DNA from: a virus | Length of the DNA stretch: 25,140 nucleotides | IMG/VR virus record: IMGVR_UViG_3300010885_009523 | Span: 1 to 25,140 of that record | Strand: one strand, 5' to 3' | Shown: positions 6,567 through 22,848 of the stretch, piece by piece | Numbering within the stretch: position 1 is the stretch's first letter | Layout of the letters: every line of letters starts with the position of its first letter | Program-made: the position numbers and the translations under genes | The notes under the pieces: model-generated | Told to the model about the DNA's origin: nothing | The model's database searches: none | The model's input: the letters and a program-made list of their open reading frames with translations, nothing else

Positions 6567-6746
6567 GTGCATTATCCTTGGCAGACAACGCCCCCAAAAG
6601 GGGCGTTCTTTGTTCCTACTTTAAAGCTAACCGAAGTCCGAGAGGAAGGACTTAAAGCCGCCGTACATCACCACATCAAAGGCAAAGCCGAGTTCGGCAT
6701 TGTTAACGGGAAGATTGGCGTTTTGTTTCGGCGATCTGGGCACTAA
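6567..6746 (+). CDS. Small conserved-looking protein over the terminator
   Basis: A frame of 59 codons from GTG 6567 (a longer version from ATG 6549 would overlap the primase gene by 17 bases). The GTG is preceded by CAGGA eight bases upstream, the better ribosome site. The product reads as a plausible basic beta-rich protein: PPKGAFFVPTLKLTEV, then EEGLKAAVHHHIKGKAEFG, then IVNGKIGVLFRRSG. The residues TTPPKGAFF are encoded by the terminator hairpin itself. Its last 44 bases overlap the 3' end of the opposing giant gene. No function recognised. It may be a small phage protein expressed by terminator read-through, or a chance frame; the protein-like composition favours the former. Confidence 0.42.
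   Translation: MHYPWQTTPPKGAFFVPTLKLTEVREEGLKAAVHHHIKGKAEFGIVNGKIGVLFRRSGH
6587..6607 (+). terminator. Rho-independent terminator of the rightward operon
   Basis: A perfect eight-base-pair stem AACGCCCC (6587-6594) and GGGGCGTT (6600-6607) with a five-base loop CAAAA, followed by CTTTGTT on the + strand. It starts 21 bases after the stop of the primase-polymerase gene. On the - strand the sequence after the stem is not T-rich, so it mainly serves the rightward transcript, though the stem could also slow leftward transcription leaving the giant gene. Confidence 0.8.
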
Positions 6747-9700
6747 ATTGTTTTGCTAGTTTTGCTCTAGTTCGCATCAATTCATCTAACTGTTCACGTT
6801 TTTGAATTGCAAACTGTTTAGAATCCATACCGGAAGGTAAACGCTGTTCTTTTACTTTGCGAATTTGTCCTGACAACTGATCTAACTCAGCTTTCATACT
6901 AGCAGCGCCCATACCAATATTAATTTCTTGTTCGTATTTTTTGCCGTATTCTTCAGCTTCTTTTTCAGCGCCCGTTTCTTGGAAATGCTTATATGTTTCA
7001 GAATACTGCGATGCTTTTTCTAAAACATCGTACGCTTTCATAGTAAGACCGCCAGCATCTTTAGGTTGGAACATTTGACCAAACACAGGCAAATCAGCCA
7101 TTGTGCCGTCAGGTTTTACAGTAGATTTATCACCGCGTATATCGGCGATTAAAGGATTTACCAATGTAGCAACGGTTGTATACAGCCCACCAAAATACCC
7201 TTTAGCTAAGTAGTCTATTTTAGCTGGTGATATACCAAAGAAGTTACCAACCTCTCCAAGATTACCGCCAATTAACTTAGCCACTTCTGTAGTCGTATCG
7301 TAATAACGCTCGTTTGGTCTTAACCCCTGCAAACGTTTGCTTTCTACTTCCGCCCCTGAATACACTGAACGGTTCATAGCAATTTCAAGCGGTGCTTTAA
7401 TAGCGGTGGGTATTCCAATAGGATTAGTTGCTTGCAATACAGTCTTAATTGCATCTAAGCCTTCTTTAGCTTTGTCGTCAGCATAAGCCATACGTACAAT
7501 AGCTTCAGGTAACGCTTTAAATATATAACCTATTTCAAACGGGATTGGCAATCTAAATGATTCTTTACCATCTTTGCCCATGCCGGGTATAAACCAATTC
7601 ATGTAACGCTGTTCAGGCGTAGCGTTTTGATACGCTTCGTTATCTTGTTGCGCTATAGCATACAAAATAGACATACCCATTATCATTGAGCCACGTTTTA
7701 TTAATTTGTTTTGCAACTCTAAACGCTTAGCGTAAGGCATATTGCCACTAAACGCTTTATACATTACGTTGTAGCCTTGAATCGCCGAATTAAAAAACGG
7801 CACCATTGTGTTAACCCAGTGCATAGAAGGCGACGCACCACGAGTATTGAAGTTCATTGACTCCATTGTGGCAATCTGCGCTTCCATATCTGACAAGCCT
7901 TGCTTGCGATAGTTTTCGTATATAACAGAACGAGTGGACGCATCTGCTTCAGTAGCTACTCTATCCATAAAAGCCATAGCGCCATTTAAATTAGCTTTGC
8001 CTGACTTAAGGCGAGTAACAATTTGATTTAAATCTTCTGCACGCCCTGTGTAAATTTCCCCACCTAAAATACCGGCTTCTTGTAATTTTTTAGCTGTATC
8101 GCTTTGACCACGTACGGCTTTATTAATCTCATTAAGCGACGATAAAATAGGCACAAAATCAGCGCCTGATGTTAACCAAGCGGATATTGGGTCACGCACT
8201 AACTGTTTGTACGCATAGAATGGGTTACGTGTTACGCCTTTACGTAGCCAGTTAGCCGGTATGCCAAGCAAACGCACAATACCCGGAAGCTGAGTAGGTA
8301 TGCCTTCTAAACCTTTAACTAAAAGCTCTGAGCTAATATCGCTAAACTCGGCGTTTTTAGATGTATCAATTACAGCGTGGTAGTCCTTACCATCGTTTTT
8401 AAACCGTATTACGTTTGGTCCTGCTGGCCCGCTACCTTTATGAATTTCAGCAATTCCAAGATTCTTTAACGTGTTAGCTACGCTGGCTGTTGCATCATTG
8501 CGCAAAGCCATTTCAGTAATCATGTTGGTGTTCTGTACAGAAGTACGGAAAAAGTCTTGAATCTTTGTGTTGTCACCAACTAGTTCATGTAGATATGGTT
8601 GGTCTTTTAAAGAACCAATACGAATTGGAGACTCGTTACCAATGATTAAATCTACGTTACCGCCACGAGCACGATAGTAAGGTATGTAGTTTTTAGCTTT
8701 AAACTTAGCCGCACTATCTTTAGATATGTATCCAGAACTAGCTAAGGAATCAATTAAGCCGTGGTTATATTTTTGATATGTTTCAAACGCTTTAACAAAC
8801 GCAGGGTCCGCATCGCCTGATCTTTCAGCGGCAGCCAGCATATCTTTGGTAATTTTGTTACCGTCAATTTCACCGTCACGTACCAGTTTTTCAAACCCAA
8901 CGCTTTTAGCACGTTTAGCTGCAGCATATGCAGTAAACATTTGATTTAACGCTTCAGGATTACCTTTAGTTGACTTAAGCAACTCATCTAAAACTTGTTT
9001 CATGCCGGGTCCACCCGACGCACGGATAGTTACTTCGCCTGTAGTTGGGTCGGTGTAAAACACACGAGCGCCGTTTACCAAAGTTTCACTAGTAATGTTA
9101 GTCCGCTGTCCATGAGACAGTAGTTTGTAAATCATTTGTGAAGATGCCGCATTTTCACCCATACGGCGCCATATCTCTTTAATTGGCGCTAGGCGATCAA
9201 CAAACTGCGTATTAAAAGCCGCTAAGTTGCCTTTAAAAGATTCGGTAACTGTTTTTGGTTTAGCAACTAATGTGTTAGAAAGCTGCATCAACGGATCGTT
9301 GCTGTCAGTAGGTTTAGCTTTACGGAAAGCAGTTTCCATGCCAATATCGCCGGAACGTAAACCGCCTCTGCTTTCCATTGCTTCTTTAGAACGCTTAAGC
9401 ACAAACAATAAGTCGGCGTCAGTAACCTTACTTAACTCCATTAAATTGTTTTTACGTAGCCAATCTTTAAACTGACCTATTAACTCTTTAATAAAACGTT
9501 GAGCTTTTTGTAAAAAGTTTTTGCTATCTAAACGCTGTTCTTCAAAGTGCGCAATCATTTCACGCACGCCCACCATCATTTCTTGTTCAGGCGTTAGATT
9601 AGGGTCGCTCTTTCTAGCTTCTCTAATAGCGTGCATAACATCATCAAGTACGCCAAGTTCTCTAGACATACGAACAAACCCGCCGGGCTGTGCTTCAATG

Positions 9701-12700
9701 CGCTTAGCTAAATTAACCATACCTTCTAGCCCAAGCAAACGATCTAATCCGTAGTGTCCAACAGCTTCGTGTGCTAACGTTTTTTCAAAGTCCAGCATAG
9801 TCTTGTGCGTGTCGCCAACAATAACAATAGTACCGTCTTTAAGTACGGCACCCTTCATTATGTCCGCTTCTTCTTTAGAAATTTGACGGCGAACATAGTC
9901 AGGCAACTCTACTGCAGTATCAGCGTATTCAAACTTAACTCCTTCAGGCAGTTTAGCTTTAAACTCGTCAGCAACACGTCGTGTTTCTTTAAGGTTTGCC
10001 GTAGTTTTTTCTTTTGAGCCTAAACGGAACACGTTACCAAAATCGTCATAGTTATCGTAATCTAACTCTGAAAGGTCTCTATCAAATAGATTACGTATAT
10101 CTCGTGTGTTTTCTTCAACGTCCATTGACTTGCTGGCGTTGCGAATATAACGCTCCATCTCTTCGGGAGATTGAAAACCAGCCTTACGTGCTTTAAGCAT
10201 TTCAGCTTCATACATTTCAGCGGCTGACGCAAACGCTTTCTTTGTTTCTTTTTCAGCAATACGCTTTTTAACAAACCCAATACGTTTGGCAGTTTTCTTA
10301 CCGGCTGGCGATGCGGCATATTCCGCTTCTTCACGAGCAGCATGTTTTTCTAAAGCTGGGGCAGCGGCTTCTTCTTGTAAAGTTTTAAGGCGTTTTGATA
10401 CGTCTTTTACTTGTTTGTCTAAATATAAAAAGTCAGCGCGCTGTTCTTTTTTACGAGCAATACCGCGCCACTTTCTAAGAGTGTCAACGTAATATATAAG
10501 CTCTTTTTTGGTAGCTGCTTCGTCTAAATATTTTTGCTTTATTTCATCAATAGCTCTTATTGTGGTTTCTGCTTCGCCTTTTAACCATCCTTCGGCATTA
10601 ATTCCTTTAGACGAAGCGTCAGTATAAATTTTTTCTTCAGCATCAGTTAATTCAATGCCTTTTTCATCTTTCTCTATTACGTCACGAAGTTTCTTATCTT
10701 CTTCTTTTTCAAAAGCAGATTTTTTATACAAACGGTCAGAAGCTTCTTCTTTAATCTTGCCACGAGTGCGCAACGCCTCAAAATCACCGCCATTAATAAT
10801 ATCGAGCTGAGCTTCTAAAGTTTGTCTTTCAATACGAATTTTGTCATTGGCTGCGTTGATAGACTTTCTTTGCGCTGCCGTAGCATTATCGGGTACTTTT
10901 TTAATTAATTTAGCTCTAGCAGCCGCAAGTTCTTTTTCAACAGTTGCTTTAATTGCAGCACGTTGTTTTTCAGTAACACGATTTTTTCTACGCTCAACGG
11001 TGCGTTTAGACTCTTCAAGTTGTTCCGCTTGTAGTGCTTTAGCTTTCTCTTCTTTTTCTATTGAGCTTTCGCCAATATCTTTTTTGAAACGTTCTGCTTT
11101 AGTTATTCTGGCGGCGGCTTCACGCAACGAGTTTTGTTCTTTATTAATGCTGTCGGTTAAACGTTTGTATTCTGCCGACTTAGGGTCGTCAAGTTTTGCA
11201 CGAGCAAGCAGCATACCCGCTAAACTGTCTTCGTCTTTTACGTCACCAAAGCCTAAATCTTCTAAACGTTTACCATCTTTTTCAAGTGCCTCTTCATATA
11301 CTTTACGGGCAGCTTCACGCTCATTTTCGCTTTTTAGTTGGTCGTTAGATTTTTTAAACAAATTACCAAGTTTTTTAGCTGTTTTATCGGCATTGACTAA
11401 ATCGGTTTCATATATTGTGCCGGTAGATACTTGAGTAGTAACTCGTTTACCGGGTAGTCCAAGACCTGTTTCACGAGCAGCTTTTTTCTCGCCTTCTTTT
11501 AAAAGTTTTGCCGTATCAGCTTCTTTTGGTGTTACATTAATGTCTTTAGTCTCGCCCATCTTAGTGGCGGTAATAGCAGGCGCTTCTCTATACTTATACG
11601 CTTTAGAACCAAACGCTTCTTTAAGAGCTTTAAGTCTGTTTAAAATTTCATCAGCTTCTTCTTTTTTAACACCCGTACGAATTACACCTGTTTCTTCTTC
11701 TGCGCCTTCAACAAACGCTTTTGTAGCGGTATCGTACTTAGCTTTAACTTCGTCAAGACGAGTTTTAAGTTTGTTTTTTCTAACTTTAAATTGTTTTTGC
11801 GCATCAATATCGCCCGAAACTTGCGCTTTTTCTAAACCAGCGGAAGCGGCGTCGTATTGTTTTTGTACAAAGTTAACACGGTTGTACAGCGCTTGTATTT
11901 CAGCTGATGAGTGCCCATCAAATTCTGTTGGATCAATACCAACAGCCTGCATAATTTGTTTTTGCTTTTTAGTTAATTCGCTTGCACCTTCAAATCCGGC
12001 TTTTTCAAATGCTTCAGCTATGGCTGTATCTTCAGGAGTAAGCTTAGCGGCGCCTTTTTCTTGAGCACGCAAACGAGTCGCACGATACCCTGTAGCACGT
12101 TCAGCTTTAGTTCCAAGATACACTTCAACAACGGTACGTACTGTATTCTCTTCTTGCTTTGTTAAGTCGGGCAAGTCGTTACTACGGCGCCCAGCATTAA
12201 TTTCCGTAATAGCGCCAGCAGCGTACGTGTCAATTTCATTACGAATAGAACGCAAAATAACTTCACGAGATCTGCTTTCTAAAAGGCCTTCTTTACCAGC
12301 GGTACCACCAAAAAACTCGCCTTTACGCAACGAATCAATATTGTCAATAATTTCAGAAATGGCAGTTTCTTGACGTTTAGCAGGCACAGCCTGCTCACCC
12401 GCTACCGTACCTTTAGGCGTAGGCGCCCCAGCTAACTGTCCAAACTCACCTTGTTGCGCTTTAGCTAAATCAAGTTCTAAACGCTTTTTAAGGTTAAGTA
12501 GGTTGGCTACCCCGTTCTTTGTTATTTTTGTTTTTGGGTTGTTTTTAGCGTCTTCAATTTTTAAATTTACATCTTCTAACGCAGCTTGAATTTTTAAGGA
12601 TTCTGTAGCTTTCCACTCACCCTGCATTTGCGCATCTTCTAAATCTTGTTCAAGACGTGCTTTGCGGCGCAGCATACGCGCTTTTTCATCTTTAGTAAGT

Positions 12701-15126
12701 TGTTTATATTGAACAATCTCTACTGCAAACTTACCGGCTTTTTTGTTTTTTTTCTTAGCTTTTTTAGCTTGATCTTCATCAATTTTTAATGTGTTTTCAA
12801 TATCCGCAATTTCTTTGCGAATACGTTCTAAATGTTCTGGACGGTAGCCTTCTTTTAGTTTAGGCTCCTCTAGTTTTAAACGTTTAGCCGCCGCTTTTTT
12901 AGCAACGTATTGTAGGTACGGTTGTTCTCCTCTAGCAGAACGCAATAAACTAACCGCTGAAGTCGGGGCTTTTTCTCCTTCTGCCGGCTTTATAGCGTTT
13001 AATTTTTCATACAAGTTTGTTAATACACCAACACGAGCATCCGGTTCTATCTGCAAGTTGTGCGCTTTGGCAAACGCTGCATCTTCTTCAATCGTTGCAA
13101 GTGCTTCTGCTACGTGGTTACGTAGCGTATCTACTTTTTTGGTTGGCCCCTTATCAAAATACCAAGCAGTTTGCCCAGCCGGTAAACCTAATGCGTTTGC
13201 TGATTCTTTGTTTAATTTATTTTTATCTAAATCATCTGCAACTTTAGTTAAAGTGTCTGTATCAAGCATTTGACGATATTTGATGTTATCGCTTTTAATA
13301 CCAACTAATCTAGCTATGCGCTCCTCTTCGGGAATATCACGATAGTCTTTAGGGTTAGGGAGTTCAGCTTTTTCTTCGCCACGCAACACATCACGGCGGT
13401 TTAAATCATTAATGTACCCTTGTAAAGCCGTTACTCTAGCTTTAGCAGCATCAACTGCGGCAGCCATTTCTTCACGTTTACCGGGTTCTAATACTTTGTC
13501 ATCAGCCAGTTTTTTAGTTACGTTTGCTAGCTGTCTTTTAGCAGCAGCCAATTGTTTTTCTAACGGCTCAAAACTAATACCGGCTTCTTTACCGTGCGCT
13601 TGCAATCTTTGTAAGGCGGCTAATTTTGTGTCGTATTCTTCACCAATTTTTTTTACTTTTTCAACGTCCCCGTTTTCGGCAGCGTCACGCAGACGAGTTT
13701 CAAGATCGTCAACTTGTTTATATAGTTCCGCATGAGCAGCTTGGGCTAAATCGGGATTCTGTTTAATAACTTCAGCGCCTTGTTTTAATTCTTCAGCTTT
13801 GGCTGCGTCATCAATTTCTTTTTGCTTAATTATCTGTTCTTGTTGTTGTGCGGCTATAGCTTCTTGCTCACGCTTTAACCGTAGTTCTTCTAAACGGCCT
13901 TCAAGCGTACTAGGTTTTTCTTCAACTTCGCCAGTTTGTTTTTTAAGTTCGTTTAGCTGCTTATACAGATCACCTATTTGTTCTTTACCCAAAAGGCGCT
14001 CTTCATCAGGTAAAGTTTTATCTTTGAGTACAGCTTTAAGATCGGCAATTTGTTGTTCTAACGTGGTGCGTTGCTGCGCCATTTCCGCTATACCTTCCGG
14101 GCTTTCACGGTAGGCTTTTTGTTCTGCTTCAGCGGCAGCTTTTTCTGTAGCCAGCTTTTCGCTCTCTACTTTTTTACCGGCTTCATCAATAAGTTTTTTA
14201 GCTCTGCGTGGCTCGCCCATACGAAGCAAACCAAAAAACGGAGCAACCATACCCATATCTTTAGCGGCTTGAATATATTGTTCATAAGCTTCAGGGCTAA
14301 ATATATCTTTGCCAATAGAATATAAACGACCCGCTTCATTGGCTATACCAGACGCAGCACCAGCACCAGCCGCTTCAACCGTGCCTTTTAATACGTTAGA
14401 TAGTTTGCCAGAAATTTGTGCGGCAGCTTCTTGTGCCCCAAGTTCACCGCTTAATACTTTAGGTGCTAGTAGTTTAGCTTCTTGAGTTGCCGTTCTTAAA
14501 GCAAAGCCTTTCATAGCTCCGCCAACAATTTCGTTACCTAAAGAATCAACAACGGTAGAAACTAATGCGGGTACTAATGCTTTACCAAAGTCAGCTTCTT
14601 GACCTTTCTCTTTTTGTGCTTGAACAAATTCACCTAAATATGCAGGGAAGTTTGTAGCAGCAAAAGCTGCAGCGCCTACTACAGGACCGGCAACACGCCC
14701 AACAGTGTTAGCAGCAATAGGAGCACCGTAACGACCGGCAAGACTACCAAGCATTCCGCCAACAGGTTCTGTAATATATTTGCTAAGTCCGGTACCAAGT
14801 AAAGATGTAATGCCTTGACGTTTGGCAATCTCTATATCTTGGTCAGTAGTACTTTGAAAACCTTCTTCACCGGCTTTTTTTAATTCTGTGCCGTATTTGT
14901 TTACGCCTTCAAGATTTGCTGTATTGCCTATGCCCTGTGCATAAGAGCCAGCGCCAGTTTTAAAACCGGAAGTAAGTGCTGGAAAAAAGCCAGTTTTTTC
15001 TTTATGCTTAGCGTAATCTTCAAAACCCTCAGGGAATTGTTCTTTTGCTAACTTAAGCGCCTCTTCATCAGATAAACCTTTTGGCACTTCAACATAAGAC
15101 CCATTGGGTAATGGTAAATACGGCAT
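6703..15126 (-). CDS. Giant (2807-aa) internal virion / polyvalent ejection protein
   Basis: A 2807-residue protein occupying a third of the window, in the position of T7 gp16. N-terminus: short start motif LPNGSYVEVPKGLSDEEAL typical of phage ejection proteins, then a Gly/Ala-rich region with a hydrophobic stretch at about 145-168 (VAGPVVGAAAFAATNFPAYL) that could insert in a membrane. Residues of about 310-1690 are charged Lys/Glu/Ala coiled coil. At 1786-1791 lies LAHEAVGHYGL, a zincin-like HExxGH motif (H1786, E1787, H1791). The C-terminal 800 residues carry features of the LPD38 large-polyvalent domain: TRNPFYAYKQLVRDPISAW near 2300, MNFNTRGASPSMHWVNTMVP, and a region around NPIGIPTAIKAPLEIAMNRS. 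It is probably packaged in the capsid and injected, helping DNA entry and perhaps cleaving a host target. Start: AGGA seven bases before ATG. Assigned from architecture and synteny; protease activity is unproven. Confidence 0.8.
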   Translation of the reverse strand: MPYLPLPNGSYVEVPKGLSDEEALKLAKEQFPEGFEDYAKHKEKTGFFPALTSGFKTGAGSYAQGIGNTANLEGVNKYGTELKKAGEEGFQSTTDQDIEIAKRQGITSLLGTGLSKYITEPVGGMLGSLAGRYGAPIAANTVGRVAGPVVGAAAFAATNFPAYLGEFVQAQKEKGQEADFGKALVPALVSTVVDSLGNEIVGGAMKGFALRTATQEAKLLAPKVLSGELGAQEAAAQISGKLSNVLKGTVEAAGAGAASGIANEAGRLYSIGKDIFSPEAYEQYIQAAKDMGMVAPFFGLLRMGEPRRAKKLIDEAGKKVESEKLATEKAAAEAEQKAYRESPEGIAEMAQQRTTLEQQIADLKAVLKDKTLPDEERLLGKEQIGDLYKQLNELKKQTGEVEEKPSTLEGRLEELRLKREQEAIAAQQQEQIIKQKEIDDAAKAEELKQGAEVIKQNPDLAQAAHAELYKQVDDLETRLRDAAENGDVEKVKKIGEEYDTKLAALQRLQAHGKEAGISFEPLEKQLAAAKRQLANVTKKLADDKVLEPGKREEMAAAVDAAKARVTALQGYINDLNRRDVLRGEEKAELPNPKDYRDIPEEERIARLVGIKSDNIKYRQMLDTDTLTKVADDLDKNKLNKESANALGLPAGQTAWYFDKGPTKKVDTLRNHVAEALATIEEDAAFAKAHNLQIEPDARVGVLTNLYEKLNAIKPAEGEKAPTSAVSLLRSARGEQPYLQYVAKKAAAKRLKLEEPKLKEGYRPEHLERIRKEIADIENTLKIDEDQAKKAKKKNKKAGKFAVEIVQYKQLTKDEKARMLRRKARLEQDLEDAQMQGEWKATESLKIQAALEDVNLKIEDAKNNPKTKITKNGVANLLNLKKRLELDLAKAQQGEFGQLAGAPTPKGTVAGEQAVPAKRQETAISEIIDNIDSLRKGEFFGGTAGKEGLLESRSREVILRSIRNEIDTYAAGAITEINAGRRSNDLPDLTKQEENTVRTVVEVYLGTKAERATGYRATRLRAQEKGAAKLTPEDTAIAEAFEKAGFEGASELTKKQKQIMQAVGIDPTEFDGHSSAEIQALYNRVNFVQKQYDAASAGLEKAQVSGDIDAQKQFKVRKNKLKTRLDEVKAKYDTATKAFVEGAEEETGVIRTGVKKEEADEILNRLKALKEAFGSKAYKYREAPAITATKMGETKDINVTPKEADTAKLLKEGEKKAARETGLGLPGKRVTTQVSTGTIYETDLVNADKTAKKLGNLFKKSNDQLKSENEREAARKVYEEALEKDGKRLEDLGFGDVKDEDSLAGMLLARAKLDDPKSAEYKRLTDSINKEQNSLREAAARITKAERFKKDIGESSIEKEEKAKALQAEQLEESKRTVERRKNRVTEKQRAAIKATVEKELAAARAKLIKKVPDNATAAQRKSINAANDKIRIERQTLEAQLDIINGGDFEALRTRGKIKEEASDRLYKKSAFEKEEDKKLRDVIEKDEKGIELTDAEEKIYTDASSKGINAEGWLKGEAETTIRAIDEIKQKYLDEAATKKELIYYVDTLRKWRGIARKKEQRADFLYLDKQVKDVSKRLKTLQEEAAAPALEKHAAREEAEYAASPAGKKTAKRIGFVKKRIAEKETKKAFASAAEMYEAEMLKARKAGFQSPEEMERYIRNASKSMDVEENTRDIRNLFDRDLSELDYDNYDDFGNVFRLGSKEKTTANLKETRRVADEFKAKLPEGVKFEYADTAVELPDYVRRQISKEEADIMKGAVLKDGTIVIVGDTHKTMLDFEKTLAHEAVGHYGLDRLLGLEGMVNLAKRIEAQPGGFVRMSRELGVLDDVMHAIREARKSDPNLTPEQEMMVGVREMIAHFEEQRLDSKNFLQKAQRFIKELIGQFKDWLRKNNLMELSKVTDADLLFVLKRSKEAMESRGGLRSGDIGMETAFRKAKPTDSNDPLMQLSNTLVAKPKTVTESFKGNLAAFNTQFVDRLAPIKEIWRRMGENAASSQMIYKLLSHGQRTNITSETLVNGARVFYTDPTTGEVTIRASGGPGMKQVLDELLKSTKGNPEALNQMFTAYAAAKRAKSVGFEKLVRDGEIDGNKITKDMLAAAERSGDADPAFVKAFETYQKYNHGLIDSLASSGYISKDSAAKFKAKNYIPYYRARGGNVDLIIGNESPIRIGSLKDQPYLHELVGDNTKIQDFFRTSVQNTNMITEMALRNDATASVANTLKNLGIAEIHKGSGPAGPNVIRFKNDGKDYHAVIDTSKNAEFSDISSELLVKGLEGIPTQLPGIVRLLGIPANWLRKGVTRNPFYAYKQLVRDPISAWLTSGADFVPILSSLNEINKAVRGQSDTAKKLQEAGILGGEIYTGRAEDLNQIVTRLKSGKANLNGAMAFMDRVATEADASTRSVIYENYRKQGLSDMEAQIATMESMNFNTRGASPSMHWVNTMVPFFNSAIQGYNVMYKAFSGNMPYAKRLELQNKLIKRGSMIMGMSILYAIAQQDNEAYQNATPEQRYMNWFIPGMGKDGKESFRLPIPFEIGYIFKALPEAIVRMAYADDKAKEGLDAIKTVLQATNPIGIPTAIKAPLEIAMNRSVYSGAEVESKRLQGLRPNERYYDTTTEVAKLIGGNLGEVGNFFGISPAKIDYLAKGYFGGLYTTVATLVNPLIADIRGDKSTVKPDGTMADLPVFGQMFQPKDAGGLTMKAYDVLEKASQYSETYKHFQETGAEKEAEEYGKKYEQEINIGMGAASMKAELDQLSGQIRKVKEQRLPSGMDSKQFAIQKREQLDELMRTRAKLAKQFSAQIAETKRQSSR

Positions 15127-15152: not shown

Positions 15153-17306
15153 TTACTTTGGTTTAATTGCCCCAATTACATTTCCGGGGACGGTATCTAC
15201 TTGTAAACTAGGCGCAGTTAAATCTCCGCCTTGGTCACTGAACCATTGTACCAGTTTTGGGTTACTTTTTATTATTTCAAGGAAACGTTTTTGTCTATAC
15301 GCATCAATTTGATTTGCGGGTAACATTCGTTTGTCGAGTTCTTTTTGTATTGTGTTGTGAATGTTTTGTAACTGCAAAGAATATTTAGCGTCGCTTCCTT
15401 CTCCTACTTTAGAGCCATAGTATTTATCTAATATTTGGTTTTTGTCTAGTGCAAGTTGCGCTCCTAAGCCTTGAGCCATAGCGGTGTTGTATCCTTTTTG
15501 CGCATCGCCATAATAACCTAAGCCTGTTTGAGCGCCTTTTGAAATTGCGGAACTTAATGGTCCTGCTGAACCGGCAGTAGTTAAACCGCTCAATATCATA
15601 CCAATACCTCTATCTTCTTTACGTTGTTGCGCTAAACCAGCTAAATACTTATCAAGAGTTGTTTGAGAAGCCGCAAATGGGTTAGCTGTAGGGGTAGAGT
15701 CTTCAGTTTTTGTACCTAGTATTTTTTGAATGTCTGCAGGTACGGCGTTAGTTTGTGTGTCGTTTGTTGCAGGCGCTTTAGCTGTTGGTTTAACTGCGGA
15801 TACTTCTTCTCTTGCTTTTGCTAAAGCTTCGGGGTTTTGCCGAAGTATTTGATTGCCTACAGCAAAATCACCGTTCATTGGATCACTAAAATTTTCAAAA
15901 TACGGGTTGCCAGCCATAGTACTCATAGTACCTTCACCTAAATTTTTTCCACCTTCATAAATCAATCCGGGTATACCAAGAGTAGCAGCCTGTTTCTGTA
16001 AAAAACCTCTAACGCCACCCGGCATATTAGGGGCGTTTGGTATTGTAGATGTTGGTGCAGAAGGTGCGGCTGGAATAGGCGCTTTTTTAGCTGCTTGTTT
16101 TTGTAAAAAATCGGCAGCTTCTCTGCTCATTGTTCTGTTAGGTGCTTTAGGACTTTTAATTTTTTTATCTTTTGGCCCGTACTCTTCTTCTAAAAGTCTT
16201 TCTGCTTGATTTGGGTACCCATATTCAGCATTTAATAGCGCTTCTGTTGCGGGTGTTCCACCGCCAGTTAAACCTACAATGCCGCCGTGCGCCAAAGAAA
16301 CAACACCCGTACCGGCTTTAGAATTAAGAAACGATAAAGTGTCGCCAACAGTTTTACCTTTTAAATATGGGTTACTTGCTATTACTTGGCGAGATACAAC
16401 ACGGTCAATAGGCGTATCATGTTTTTTATTTAACATACTTTTAATTCCCGCCAAACCAAAATGATGCGCACCGTATACTTCGCCGTATGTTGGGTCACGT
16501 CCAAGAGATTTTTTAAGTCCTTCTGCGTTTTGACGCAAATACGCCGCACCTAAGTCGGCATTTTTTACAGGGTCAAACTGCTCGCCCTCTTTACCGCCCA
16601 TGCCTTTCCAAGTTCTGTCTGTAAATTGAAAAAGTCCTTTAGCAGTACTGTGTGGGTTTTTAGCGTCTGTTTTACCGCCGCTTTCAGAATGCGCTATACG
16701 AGCCAACAAATCTGTAGGTAGGCTATGTTTTTCTGCAGCGCTTGAAAGAATATTTGAAATGCCTTTGTTATCTCCGGAGATTGTTTTAGAGGCAGAAATA
16801 ATACTGGCTGCAGCAGGTTTAGTTATTGAACTATATTTAGCTGCTTTAGGGTTCGCTACAGCCATAATGCCAGCGCCTAAACCACCCAAGTCGCCATAAC
16901 GTGCAGACATAGCTTCTAATTCAGCAAAATCATCATCTTCAGCGTCTTCGTCATCTTCATCAAAAACGTTAAAACCGCCTGTAGCAAAAGACACCAAACC
17001 GCCGCCAGCGCCCATAGCAGGTTCGCCCATGCCTTCCATTGTAGGAGCAGGCAACTGATCTAAACCAGCCATTTGTGGCTGCGCTTGAGCAACCATTCTA
17101 TCTCTTACGCTAGGCTGAGCGCCTTTGGCTTTAGCTTGCGCTCCTTTGAGTGCAGTAGCTTGTTTATCCCGCATTTGTTTAGCGGACATAGCAACAGCCA
17201 TAGGCAAAGAGTTATCTTGCCCTTGCATAATTCTTAACAATCTGTCATCTGGGTAAATCTTTGGATTCAGCGCCAGTTTGTACATCTGTTCTAGATTCAT
17301 TCCCAT
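15153..17306 (-). CDS. Virion protein with lytic transglycosylase (SLT) domain
   Basis: A 717-residue internal virion protein whose middle (about 183-330) is a soluble lytic transglycosylase-like domain: LLARIAHSESGGK (E208 as catalytic acid), STAKGLFQFTDRTWKGMGG (220-238), and DLGAAYLRQN, with the usual E..GG / GLFQ(F) pattern. It would cut peptidoglycan glycan strands locally during DNA entry, as the T7 gp16 N-terminal domain does. The rest is low-complexity: an acidic run DEDDEDAEDDDF (117-127), and Gly boxes GAGGGLVSFATGG (99-111) and HGGIVGLTGGG later on. Start: TAAGGA, in which TAA is the stop of the upstream gene, lies six bases before the ATG; this coupling indicates co-translation. 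It lies between the gp14-like protein and the giant protein, so it belongs to the ejection apparatus. Confidence 0.85.
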   Translation of the reverse strand: MGMNLEQMYKLALNPKIYPDDRLLRIMQGQDNSLPMAVAMSAKQMRDKQATALKGAQAKAKGAQPSVRDRMVAQAQPQMAGLDQLPAPTMEGMGEPAMGAGGGLVSFATGGFNVFDEDDEDAEDDDFAELEAMSARYGDLGGLGAGIMAVANPKAAKYSSITKPAAASIISASKTISGDNKGISNILSSAAEKHSLPTDLLARIAHSESGGKTDAKNPHSTAKGLFQFTDRTWKGMGGKEGEQFDPVKNADLGAAYLRQNAEGLKKSLGRDPTYGEVYGAHHFGLAGIKSMLNKKHDTPIDRVVSRQVIASNPYLKGKTVGDTLSFLNSKAGTGVVSLAHGGIVGLTGGGTPATEALLNAEYGYPNQAERLLEEEYGPKDKKIKSPKAPNRTMSREAADFLQKQAAKKAPIPAAPSAPTSTIPNAPNMPGGVRGFLQKQAATLGIPGLIYEGGKNLGEGTMSTMAGNPYFENFSDPMNGDFAVGNQILRQNPEALAKAREEVSAVKPTAKAPATNDTQTNAVPADIQKILGTKTEDSTPTANPFAASQTTLDKYLAGLAQQRKEDRGIGMILSGLTTAGSAGPLSSAISKGAQTGLGYYGDAQKGYNTAMAQGLGAQLALDKNQILDKYYGSKVGEGSDAKYSLQLQNIHNTIQKELDKRMLPANQIDAYRQKRFLEIIKSNPKLVQWFSDQGGDLTAPSLQVDTVPGNVIGAIKPK

Positions 17307-17315
17307 AATTAGTCC

Positions 17316-18380
17316 TTAACTAAACGCTTTGTATGCACCCAAACCAGCAATACCTAAACCTGTCATTTGATTTAGCGTACTTGGAGCGGCTTGATAGTTT
17401 TGTGTTGTTGTAGACTGAGTTGGCAATCCACGCAGCATTGCGTTCATAAATGACAGCTGTTGTTGCGGATATTGTTGCGCTGTAGCATAGTTTTGGATTG
17501 CTTGGTTAATCATGTTTTGTTGTTGCTGTTGTTCAGCAGTACCGGCTTGCATTTGAGATTGCGCAATACCTTGTTGAGCAGCCAGTTGTTGACCGCCAAT
17601 ACCAGCTAGTTGATTGGCGGCGCTAGCTCCTTGGCCTAAACCTTGCAAACCTAAATTAGCCCCAAACTGTTGCGCCTGTTGTGCTTGTTGAAACGCATTG
17701 TTGTACCCTTGACCAATTGCTTGGTTCATAGCCATGTTTTTATTACGCTGATTTTCAGAAGCCATCAAAGCCTCACGAGATCCACCAAAAGCGCCAGATT
17801 TAGTAGCGTTACCCATTTGTTGCGTGCCAGTAATATCGTACTGTCTTTGAATTTCTGCAAGTTGTGGGTTTAATGACGCCTGTAAATACGGGTTCATGTA
17901 CGCTTGACTAATGCGTGGGTCTGTAGCCTGCATAGCATAGTTACGACCAGCTTGTAACGCACCCATACCGCTAGCAGCAGCCATCTGAGACGCATCTTGG
18001 TATTGTTGTGGGGTCTGCAAATTAGCCGCAGTATTCATTGCCTGTTCTTGCAGTGGGCTAAATTTAGCTATGTAGTCTTGCGGATTTTCGCTGTATGGTA
18101 CATAAGGTTTAACGCCAGTAATCTGGGTTGTGCCGTCTTCGTTTTGCTGGGTATTAAACAACTGTTGCTGAGTAGCGCCAAGCATTGTTTCTGCATAAGG
18201 ACGCAAGTATTCAGGGATGTTTGTATTCTGTACAGTAGTTTGAGTAGGTGCCGCAGGGGGAGGAGGGGGAGGAGTACCACCACCGCCGCCTTCAAGAGTC
18301 ATACCACCAGCGCCAAAACCACGGCCCATGCGTGGTTTAAAAGCCTGTTCAGGCAACATTGAATCTAGTGTGTATCTCAT
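17316..18380 (-). CDS. Q/A-rich internal virion (ejection) protein, gp14-like position
   Basis: A 354-residue protein, strongly enriched in Gln, Ala, Asn and Met, with a polyproline stretch TPPPPPPAAP (36-45). It then has helical repeats such as YMNPYLQASLNPQLAEIQRQ (161-180) and TKSGAFGGSREALMASE (193-209), signatures recurring in podovirus ejection proteins ('NPY...', 'GAFGGSR'). It ends with a hydrophobic LGIAGLGAYKAF tail. By position (after the GNAT protein, before the transglycosylase protein) it corresponds to T7 gp14, which forms the outer-membrane part of the ejectosome. The start overlaps the GNAT stop as ATGA. No catalytic motif is seen; assignment is by composition and synteny. 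Confidence 0.7.
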   Translation of the reverse strand: MRYTLDSMLPEQAFKPRMGRGFGAGGMTLEGGGGGTPPPPPPAAPTQTTVQNTNIPEYLRPYAETMLGATQQQLFNTQQNEDGTTQITGVKPYVPYSENPQDYIAKFSPLQEQAMNTAANLQTPQQYQDASQMAAASGMGALQAGRNYAMQATDPRISQAYMNPYLQASLNPQLAEIQRQYDITGTQQMGNATKSGAFGGSREALMASENQRNKNMAMNQAIGQGYNNAFQQAQQAQQFGANLGLQGLGQGASAANQLAGIGGQQLAAQQGIAQSQMQAGTAEQQQQQNMINQAIQNYATAQQYPQQQLSFMNAMLRGLPTQSTTTQNYQAAPSTLNQMTGLGIAGLGAYKAFS

Positions 18381-18790
18381 ATTTTAGTCTCTACAATTCT
18401 GTACCGCTCTTCAAACCCATAACGACTCCACAAACGGGCAATTGCTTCTCTAGCTGCACCCTGTATTTTAGTAGCTCCGTTAGCCTTAAGTAAATCTTTA
18501 AATTGCCCAAACGTATCTTTATTTGATATTAACTTGCCGCCAATAAATGTTACAAAAGCGACTCTATCATTTGGGTAATTTGAAAATGTTACTGTTGCTG
18601 CTCCGTGTATTGCACCCTCATCATCTACTGCTACAACCAAAAGCCACTGCCCTGATGACACGTAGACTTTAACTTGTTCCAACGTGTAATCATCTCCGCA
18701 ATACTGCTGCGCTTCGCTAATATATTTCTCAACCAAAGGCCAAGCTTGATTAACGTATTGAACTGGAACATGTCTAATTACCAAACTCAT
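18377..18790 (-). CDS. GNAT-fold protein, T7 gp13-like
   Basis: A 137-residue protein with the GNAT layout: helix AWPLVEKYISEAQQY (16-30), strands WLLVVAVDDEGAIHGAATV (49-67) and DRVAFVTFIGGKL (75-87), and a final helix-strand AIARLWSRYGFEERYRIVE (116-134) similar to the C-terminal 'YGFE' found in GNAT enzymes. The usual acetyl-CoA loop (R/QxxGxG/A) is not evident; at its place stands FIGGKLISNKDTF. The acetyl donor site may therefore be degenerate and the protein may act structurally. T7 gp13 is a small virion protein of this fold (Pfam family Phage_T7_Gp13), and the gene order here matches. Both ends overlap neighbours as ATGA. Confidence is good for the fold and moderate for gp13 orthology. 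Confidence 0.75.
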   Translation of the reverse strand: MSLVIRHVPVQYVNQAWPLVEKYISEAQQYCGDDYTLEQVKVYVSSGQWLLVVAVDDEGAIHGAATVTFSNYPNDRVAFVTFIGGKLISNKDTFGQFKDLLKANGATKIQGAAREAIARLWSRYGFEERYRIVETKI

Positions 18791-19930: not shown

Positions 19931-20227
19931 CTAAACCGTCGTGCCGCTAGCGTTTTTCCACACAGTACCGTTCCACCAAATAGGAATTCCAAGGGTTGTA
20001 TCGTAATAAATCTGCCCAATAACCAGCGGCGCTGCTAATGTATTTGTTGGTCTTTCTGCTGTAGTACCCGATGCAGGCGTTGTAACGGCTTGGGTAAGGT
20101 TATCTATCTGATTAAAATACAAACGAAGCGCGTTATTTAACTGGTCTTGATACATCTGTGCATATTCAACCGGCGCAATAGGCAGGTTAGGAGCTTTTGA
20201 AGGGCGAATTCTAGCGTTATATGTCAT
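19931..20227 (-). CDS. Small tail-associated protein with WNGT motif
   Basis: A 98-residue protein: a basic start with [18 protein letters not shown], a helix [21 protein letters not shown] (shown in parts [13 protein letters not shown] and NQIDNLTQ), and a C-terminal [20 protein letters not shown], a motif widely shared by phage tail and fibre-tip proteins (YYDT.L..PIWWNGT.W). It follows the 874-aa tail protein with an ATGA overlap, so it is co-translated and probably attaches to or caps the tail. No enzymatic site is visible. Confidence 0.75.
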
Positions 20228-22848
20228 CTTCTACCATCCGGTCTAATGTCCATACGTGGGCTACCTAACTGCCAAGCAACACCCAATGTATTAGACTCAA
20301 GTCTAAACGCCATTTGCCTACCTCTTAATCTTGTGTATACCTGCCCATCAAATTCTTGAACATTGTACACACTTCTAGTCGCATAATTATTTTGGCTTTG
20401 AACTGTAGGATTATCCGCAGTGCCATAGGGAGTACCCGAGTTTTGTCTTGGTCTTATAGTCATTGTTACAGACGGCTGGTTAACAGTAGAACCGTTAAAG
20501 TTAACGTCAGGAAGAATTCGCCACACAAATCCAAAATTATGTCCATCCCCAATATCAAAATCAGAAGATTGAACATAAGAACTAATAGCTCTAGGTGTTA
20601 AACCGGATACATCATCTACGCCATTCTCGTGATATAAAAGCTGCCCAGTACCACCAGTAATAGACATACTAGTAGAAGATACCGTTTGGTTTACGTTTAG
20701 TTCATATGTGCCAGTACCGCCTGTACCCGTTATGTAATTTGTAATTTGGGTACCCGCAGAAACCCCAGACCCAACAATAGTAGTATCTAAAGTAATAGTG
20801 CCAGAAGTTACGTTGCTAACAGTTAACGTTGTTCCGCTAATAGATGCTGTAAATGTAGCGCTGGGGGTGTAAGATGCCGCTACTGGGTACTGTTGAATTC
20901 CAGTTTGCAACCAAGCCGTACGAGATAACGTACCATAATACCAAACACGGTCTAAATAATTATAAATCACGTATTTATCAACCGCAGTACTTTGGCTTGA
21001 GTTGCTAACATAATACCACCAGACTTCGTTGTACCCTTCGTTAGCGCCGGCAAATACTTGGTATGCTTGGTTCTGATTAATGTCATCAAAAATGTATTGA
21101 CGCAGCGAGCATGGCAATGTCTCAACCCTACCAGAATATTGGTAGAACTTTTCTGTACCCATCCAGTAGGTTACGTTATTAACAGTAACCATGCAGTTAG
21201 GTGAAATAATAGAAATGTTATCCATTAATACTTGAAAGCCCCAAACATACGGAGCGCCTAAATACTGCATAGAATAAATAGCGGAATCAGTCCATACTAA
21301 AATCTCTTGGCGTGTAGCCCGTGCGCCCATAATGTAAGAACCGTTAGTTAATGCAAACTCGCCTGACTGGTTTGTAACATCCGGAACCCATTGGTACTCA
21401 TTATTTTGATCTGACCAGCGTACCAGCATTGGATTAAAAGTAGTATTTGGGGTTCCAGAAGTATATGGATTAGCCCCCATAGCAATAACAAACCGCTGAA
21501 TAGCCGAAGAAACTACTTGGTAAGTTGCCGTTGGAACATATGCTGAAGACGCTAAGGTAGCTAAAAGTTGCGCCCTTGTAGTTACTCCAGAAGAGGCTAG
21601 CCAATAATATATAGGGCCACCACGAGGGGCAATTAATAAGTTTTGACCGTAGTTGTCGTTAGACCATAAGCGTAATTGCGAGCCAATGCCTACAGTAGCA
21701 GCAGAACCCCAAGGACGTATGCCGTATTGAGGGTACACAACAACATTAGAGCCACCACCAACACCGCCATAAGGGGCAGCAGCAGCGATAGTAATTGTGT
21801 AAGTATTGGCATCTACATAAGTAATTTCAAAAGTGCTATTTAAAAGAGTAGCTGGTACAGGTGTTACAGTACTATGTCCAGAAAGCCCATAAGTGCCTGT
21901 ACGCAATCCATAAGTGCCTGTAGAAAAACCATAAACAGTTGGTACGGCTGTCACATCTATAGCACCGGCAAAAGACACCCAAACAATAGAAGCCGTGCCA
22001 GAACCAGTACCCGCTCCAGTTGCAGTAAATATTGTCCCAACCGTATTAGCAGAAGCGCCAATAGACGTAAAGCTAGTGGACCCTACAGAAACAATTTTGT
22101 ATTGTTGACCAACAGTAAAAGCGCCAGCAGTAGTTAAATATCCATGAGCATTTTGAGTTACCGTAACTGTAGTACTTCCCCCAGAAACAGTAAAGGGGTT
22201 TGTGCCTAATGCAACGGTGCTTGTTGGCGACCATGCGCCTGCGCCCCAGCCGTTACTTGTAGTGTATACGTCATTACCTATTGGGTATTCATACTGGATT
22301 GTTACTGTGCCCCCGCCTGTAGTAGTAGAAGAAGCGGTACCGCTAGCAGTAATTTCAAACTGTACGCTACTAATAACTTTAGTAACTGTGTATTCGCCAG
22401 AAATGGTTAACCCACCAACTGTAGCAGTGCTAGTTAAAATTACATAATCCCCAATGTTCGTAGAAATTCCGCTAACCGTGTCTGTCACCGTTACTGTTGA
22501 AGAGCCGCTTTGTGTAGATAACGGGCTAGCCCCTAAAGTAGTGGTTGTGCTGCCGCTACCGTTTACAAGCAGTGGGGTAACGTCGTTATAAACGCCGCCT
22601 TTGGCAATATAGTATTTAACACTCGTGCCAACACCCATGTAGTTGTTGCCAGATAAGTCAACCCAGTTCCATAAAGAACGGCAAACACCTAAAAATGTGG
22701 TGCTAGCAAACCGAATCCAACCACCGAGTTTTTCAGGAAAACCAGAACGAAAACGAATTTTATCCCCATCATACCAACCACCCTCGTTTGAGTAATCAGT
22801 ACCTTCACGGTTTAAACCGGGGCGAAATTGTATTTTCTGTAATGGCAT
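20224..22848 (-). CDS. Tail tube/nozzle protein (T7 gp12-like) with inserted modules
   Basis: An 874-residue tail protein. The first 90 residues ([46 protein letters not shown]) form the start typical of podovirus tail tubular B / nozzle proteins, and later segments ([57 protein letters not shown]) fit that family's beta-propeller. It would form the lower tail tube through which DNA leaves. Compared with a compact nozzle it carries extra low-complexity segments: an adhesin-like module at about 240-288, a heptad repeat near 305-325 (YGFSTGT / YGLRTGT / YGLSGHS) and a second module at about 658-735. RBS: AGGG within the lysozyme stop region, six bases before the ATG. Family placement is by start signature, size and synteny. 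Confidence 0.85.
20640..20872 (-). other. Inserted adhesin-like module B in the tail tube protein
   Basis: Residues of about 658-735 of the 874-aa protein read as [18 protein letters not shown]... and [18 protein letters not shown], a Thr/Gly/Ser-rich repeat unit common to many phage surface proteins. It interrupts an otherwise continuous nozzle segment between QQYPVAAS and [12 protein letters not shown]. Boundaries are by eye. Confidence 0.55.
21887..21940 (-). repeat. 21-bp tandem repeat coding a heptad peptide
   Basis: On the + strand CCATAAGTGCCTGTA occurs at 21887-21901 and 21908-21922, a period of 21 bases, with a third partial copy at 21929. It codes the heptads [14 protein letters not shown] and YGLSGHS within the tail tube protein. 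Confidence 0.8.
21985..22130 (-). other. Inserted adhesin-like module A in the tail tube protein
   Basis: Residues of about 240-288 include [14 protein letters not shown] and [20 protein letters not shown], a repeat family that appears in many phage and prophage fibres. It splits a domain that begins [16 protein letters not shown] and resumes [13 protein letters not shown]; without the insert these parts would read as one TVTVT.NAHG...VTFAGA unit, as in the domain just before it. Boundaries are by eye. Confidence 0.6.

Follow-up and report, generated by a model that had tools for sequence, protein, structure and literature searches.

Phage-type polyvalent proteins are believed, as a class, to travel inside the virion and to be injected along with the DNA. 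The metallopeptidases described in such proteins include a HEXXXH variant, whose histidines are separated by four residues, and these enzymes have been proposed to release the domains of the protein that carries them, although host-directed action is also among their proposed roles (PMC5512222). The virion RNA polymerase of phage N4 has a related domain, yet it is packaged unprocessed (PMC5512222). In purified virions of Burkholderia phage JC1, gp69 was detected by mass spectrometry with 51 unique peptides and the second-highest score (PMC9144972). The first 30 residues of P1 DarB target the capsid (PMC9024508), and Ip2 and Ip3 of phage T4, which are injected, block host defence in a subtype-specific manner (PMC12373910).

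We analysed a stretch of viral DNA of 25,140 nucleotides (IMG/VR record IMGVR_UViG_3300010885_009523), referred to here as the window, in which a gene at 6703..15126 encodes a giant protein of 2,807 residues; nucleotide positions are those of the window, residue numbers those of the giant, and all genes and domains given with coordinates are on the minus strand. From translation of the open reading frame, the gene is a single frame from ATG to stop with 2,807 codons and zero internal stops. The preliminary description had claimed such a frame, a third of the window and about twice the length of T7 gp16, and this was borne out: the frame is kept in related phage contigs (L003-L010; full-length relatives have 2,418-2,779 residues), it takes up 33.5% of the window and it is 2.1 times as long as T7 gp16 (1,318 residues). 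A 66,558-bp IMG/VR contig (L002) encodes letter for letter the same protein. This contig looks complete because at least 50 bases are repeated at its two ends, and a terminase large subunit, a portal and a head protein were recognised on it with PHROGs. The source is a 66-kb podovirus-like phage. We propose, with a probability of about 0.5, that the giant is an LPD38 protein packed in the virion and injected, which would cut itself by means of a zincin and so free a host-directed cassette.

The C-module (residues 1926-2807, about 900 residues; 6706..9351) is supported by identity to the sister phages, which is 72-75% (74% for the nearest sister, L010), and by its structural matches. It contains the LPD38 domain (PF18857, residues 2497-2680; 7087..7638), found by hmmscan with an E-value of 4.3e-33 and a score of 115 bits against a Pfam cut-off of 27, and the hallmark of the module, the PFFNSAIQG motif (PFFNxxxQG, residues 2443-2451; 7774..7800), of which P754, F755 and Q761 (alignment columns) are invariant in 38 relatives. 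The C-module model matched solely LPD-type viral proteins (best E 7e-45), while a Foldseek search of the PDB with the whole 1,118-residue C-terminal model gave nothing significant. An LPD38-like end in a C-terminal module of the polyvalent-protein class had been suspected earlier; LPD38 does lie within the last 800 residues, and with the structural matches it agrees with that class. The giant is a phage-type polyvalent protein. One nearly full-length relative of the C-module, at 35% identity, is on an 83.8-kb contig of a Chitinophagales metagenome-assembled genome (L114, JAGYJT010000012.1), and this binning is a possible hint of the host for part of the group.

At the other end, the N-module (residues 1-316; 14179..15126), supported by alignment and an AlphaFold model (pLDDT 71), is all-helical after a short N-terminal tag of residues 1-35 (MPYLPLPNGSYVEVPKGLSDEEALKLAKEQFPEGF; 15022..15126). 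The tag starts with MPYLPLPNGSYVEVPKGLS and is modelled as beta-beta-alpha, with block pLDDT values of 77-87. A start of the LPDG/GPDG type is present in 51 of the 67 relatives with a complete 5' end, the remainder beginning with other short sequences, and by analogy with P1 DarB the tag is a candidate packaging signal. Two Gly/Ala-rich hydrophobic helices were modelled at about 109-173, and charged residues make up just 9% around 113-168, in keeping with the hydrophobic N-terminal region of the preliminary description. The module is 43-72% identical to those of the sister phages per block of 100 residues and 64% identical to that of L010. Foldseek found no significant match to its model in the PDB, and profile searches of both the N-module and the C-module against solved structures gave weak or chance-level matches at most. 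In L153 and L154 the N-module is 51% identical to that of the window over 86%, yet the C-module is 37% identical; the N-module may also be exchanged.

Between these ends, residues about 317-1693 (some 1,380 residues; 10048..14178) make up an exchangeable cassette without a known family, recognised from DNA breakpoints against the sisters and from cassette typing. This exchange was absent from the first reading of the sequence. Similarity to the sisters at the DNA level ends at residue 300-316 in four of them and at 140 in the most divergent, and it restarts in all five at residues 1694-1723; the boundaries coincide with the end of the N-module and the start of the zincin. In L010 the middle is nearly unmatched, with 4% covered. 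Among 53 relatives we counted from 19 (BLAST, 30% coverage) to 25 (50% coverage) mutually unrelated cassette types, numbers that vary with the BLAST thresholds and with the choice of the 80 relatives kept out of 584, which had been found with a wider alignment in a search whose E-values are relative to the candidates only. Cassette and C-module are uncoupled, and pairs with C-modules 90-91% identical share no middle. For example, L034 and L084 have C-modules 91% identical and nothing common in the middle, whereas L034 and L068 share 84% of the middle with C-modules 40% identical. The window and L039 share 73% of the middle with C-modules 38% identical, and the cassette type of the window recurs in L039 and in L140-L149, whose C-modules are about 37-39% identical to that of the window. 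As a single-sequence query the cassette alone retrieved only itself; its relatives surfaced through phmmer on fetched loci and then through a profile. The wholesale swapping of the middle, with the ends and the protease conserved, points to the middle as the likely payload.

The alternative that survives best, which we nevertheless consider unlikely, is that the middle serves structurally as a spacer or scaffold. It would then be an extended helical arm, rich in charge, that gives the internal core or a trans-envelope channel its shape and drifts freely, with only composition and length counting. All the middles are indeed alike in composition, with 24-38% charged residues and little Gly or Pro, and that of the window is 38% DEKR, 60% helix-prone and poor in Gly and Pro. 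The preliminary description had spoken of about 1400 residues of charged coil; the charge and the helix propensity were confirmed, but a regular coiled coil was rejected, because in Fourier analysis a periodicity of 3.4-3.75 was significant in 12.6% of 42-residue segments of the middle, compared with 61% for tropomyosin and 27% for the C-terminal part of the giant itself. By charge and hydropathy the middle falls almost at the limit for disorder (H 0.405 versus 0.416), and therefore it may be partly disordered or single-helix. Pfam, PHROGs and PADLOC applied to the window revealed no known domain in the cassette, including no enzyme or anti-defence domain, a set of 37 middles gave zero matches to Pfam and PHROGs at E 1e-3, and profile searches against solved structures gave weak or chance-level matches at most for the cassette and likewise for the inner domain described below.

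However, a spacer in which only composition and length count is difficult to reconcile with middles that range from 371 to 1,888 residues, or with the sharpness of the DNA breakpoints. The middles of the window and L039 align collinearly, in blocks of 48-62% identity that exceed the C-module average of about 38%. In addition, a small inner domain (residues about 905-1030; 12037..12414; motif D-x-ID-x-x-RKGE-x-x-GG ... I-x-x-x-R ... K-x-x-x-ATG-x-x-A, with RKGEFFGG...ATG in the window) recurs inside otherwise unrelated cassettes and has 17 invariant columns in 11 proteins; 20 open reading frames were checked, and every one of the 19 that run on into the C-module is a giant of the LPD38 type. 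Within cassette types dN/dS is 0.14-0.18, about twice the 0.07-0.12 of the C-modules, as rough values with dS at 0.7-1.8 and partly saturated. The cassette therefore has a sequence-specific function and is no neutral spacer. Hypervariability through positive selection is unsupported, dN/dS being far below 1. The giant had been put forward as a carrier of an undescribed function; no known domain was found in the middle, and the candidate site can be narrowed from the whole protein to the exchangeable cassette, which is under purifying selection.

Adjoining the cassette is a putative metallopeptidase domain of the zincin type (residues 1690-1925; 9352..10059), supported by the alignment of relatives and the AlphaFold model. 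The HExxGH motif and metallo site noticed at the outset are present as HEAVGH (residues 1786-1791; 9754..9771), in which HE and the final H are separated by three residues, making the motif one of the HExxxH form, and they are conserved. In 31 relatives chosen for HExxxH, the invariant columns are H1786, E1787 and H1791 (alignment columns H97, E98 and H102), E1856 (E167; 9559..9561) and one Ala, and no others. E1856, which played no part in the selection of these relatives, is the candidate third metal ligand, and H97, E98 and E167 are invariant also in a set of 14 proteins that includes a HExxH form. The chance of any HExxH or HExxxH in the equivalent 470-residue stretch of a shuffled sequence is 0.0025; such a motif lies within this stretch in 53 of 74 relatives, with HExxxH in the slot in 36 and HExxH in 17. 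The model arranges a helix, strands, the helix with HExxxH and then the helix with the Glu in zincin order, at pLDDT values of about 80-93 across most of its length; from motif, conservation and model topology a zincin fold is tentatively assigned. The Foldseek search with the C-terminal model (pTM 0.50) returned no zincin among its PDB matches, and the zincin sequence profile gave weak matches only, to 3e11 (E 0.058) and Peptidase_M76 (E 0.21). In L010 the domain is 79% identical to that of the window. In L042, L043, L044, L047, L053 and others, a HExxH-type zincin replaces the HExxxH type in the same slot, which looks like an exchange of the protease itself. The relatives most distant from the window have the motif far upstream of the slot.

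Perhaps the effector is the zincin itself, with a host protein as its substrate, and the cassette is a targeting or carrier arm. This would be in line with the host-directed role proposed for polyvalent metallopeptidases (PMC5512222), and with the retention of HExxH or HExxxH somewhere in the protein in 73 of 74 relatives. However, the two motif types share one slot beside unrelated cassettes, and because of this a generic processing role fits better than one fixed host substrate; we consider an effector zincin improbable. It counts against self-cleavage of the giant that the zincin could have a host or virion protein as its substrate, or serve assembly only.

The genes upstream of the giant were annotated with Pfam and PHROGs. 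In the direction of transcription they are a virion structural protein of 874 residues in a tail tube B-like position (20224..22848; phrog_3287, E 2e-64), small proteins, a 137-residue protein (18377-18790), a DNA ejection protein of 354 residues (17316..18380; phrog_4287, E 2.4e-12) and a protein of 717 residues with an SLT transglycosylase domain (15153..17306; PF01464, E 2.9e-12), which is probably the ejection protein that opens the peptidoglycan. Compared with L010 these neighbours are 76-98% identical, except one (369 residues) at 44%. The tube-type protein has 874 residues in the window and L010 versus 703-709 in L004 and L007, and this length polymorphism suggests an inserted domain. 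The SLT protein is patchy among the sisters (36-91% covered, 601-720 residues), and given this coverage it, too, may swap segments. The 137-residue protein, at 74-96% identity between sister phages, is among the most conserved of the cluster; it occupies the slot of the annotated acetyltransferases HTVC034P gp47 and JC1 gp63, and its sole PHROG match is weak and to a family of unknown function. Downstream, a strong hairpin at 6587-6607 with eight pairs (six G-C) between the convergent 3' ends of the giant and a primase-like gene is suited to act as a terminator in both directions.

The giant gene is thus the last of a podovirus ejection-gene cluster, amid late virion genes. The preliminary description had likened this position to that of T7 gp16, and the likeness holds for gene position alone. 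That the giant is merely a long ejectosome protein of the T7 gp16 type would agree with this position and with the hydrophobic helices near the N-terminus, and T7 gp16 is itself injected. We regard this as very unlikely, since homology was rejected by hhalign (0.1% for both modules), and T7 gp16, half the length of the giant, has its own N-terminal transglycosylase domain, whereas SLT is absent from the giant and present in the neighbouring gene. Finally, although all close relatives are metagenome contigs, chimeric assembly can hardly account for the cassette pattern, given that the same two boundaries occur in many independent contigs with frames open throughout and that the cassette type of the window is found in about ten other contigs.

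Returning to the self-cleaving, injected LPD38 protein that we favour, the steps we infer would be as follows. The giant, last of the ejection proteins, would be taken up into the virion and later injected together with the DNA. Its C-module and the short tag at its N-terminus would serve as a delivery frame for packaging and for passage through the tail and periplasm, while the hydrophobic helices of the N-module would contact the inner membrane. Inside the cell, the HExxxH zincin would cleave the polypeptide beside the cassette and free a fragment of about 1,380 residues. The target of the freed cassette in the host would most likely be a factor of defence or early takeover, and one that varies from host to host. 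We propose that whole cassettes are swapped while the frame is kept because the target would differ between hosts. More tentatively, modular injection may be clade-wide, one frame of tag, hydrophobic helices, zincin and LPD38 module carrying in each phage a different uncharacterised anti-host payload cut free by the protease, much as polymorphic toxins have interchangeable toxin tips.

Polyvalent proteins have so far been described by their recognisable enzymes, and here a large set of phage contigs combines one frame with at least 19 kinds of payload in which the searches detected no known domain. Should these payloads be effectors that are released, they would form a sizeable and easily mined reservoir of proteins acting in the first minutes of infection, and the boundaries at residue about 316 and at the zincin near 1694 would define what to clone.

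Several described proteins can be compared with the giant. P1 DarB, likewise a giant of the virion, is believed to be injected and has an N-terminal packaging signal (PMC9024508), but it acts against type I restriction, an activity not recognisable in the giant of the window. The 'DarB-like' JC1 gp69 (4,515 residues; PMC9144972) and Bcep22 gp75 share with the giant an LPD38 near the C-terminus, and their genes likewise close the virion module, behind acetyltransferase and ejection-type genes. Through this LPD38-bearing relative, the mass spectrometry of JC1 supports by analogy the presence of the giant in virions. JC1 gp69 and Bcep22 gp75 carry transglycosylase, helicase and methylase-type domains and LPD3, whereas in the window a separate gene encodes the SLT domain and no known cargo is recognised in the giant; Pfam and PHROGs found none of the helicase or methylase domains of DarB-like antirestriction proteins in the giant. 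Pelagibacter phage HTVC034P has a closely similar gene order, with tail tube, acetyltransferase, internal virion protein, one more gene, a giant LPD38 protein and then the tail fibre. The C-module of this protein, gp44 (1,229 residues), is homologous to that of the giant (hhalign 99.8%), but gp44 is without HExxH or HExxxH and without a long cassette. Among cultured phages, a relative that shares the architecture of the giant is that of Escherichia phage PTXU04.

In more distant relatives, recognised effectors do occur between the same ends: a helicase and a methylase in Vibrio phage D274, a methylase and ddrB-ParB in phiARM81mr, an inorganic pyrophosphatase and LPD3 in CF418P1, and a weak ART match in Pag-Yong1. 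The polyvalent proteins with LPD38 and a HEXXXH zincin described by Iyer et al. 2017 (PMC5512222) are like the giant in the phage-only LPD38, in HExxxH with a Glu, in giant size and in late virion context. The giant differs from them in that its chain combines the zincin with no recognised effector, its cargo being instead a charged, helix-prone cassette that is swapped as a unit at fixed boundaries.
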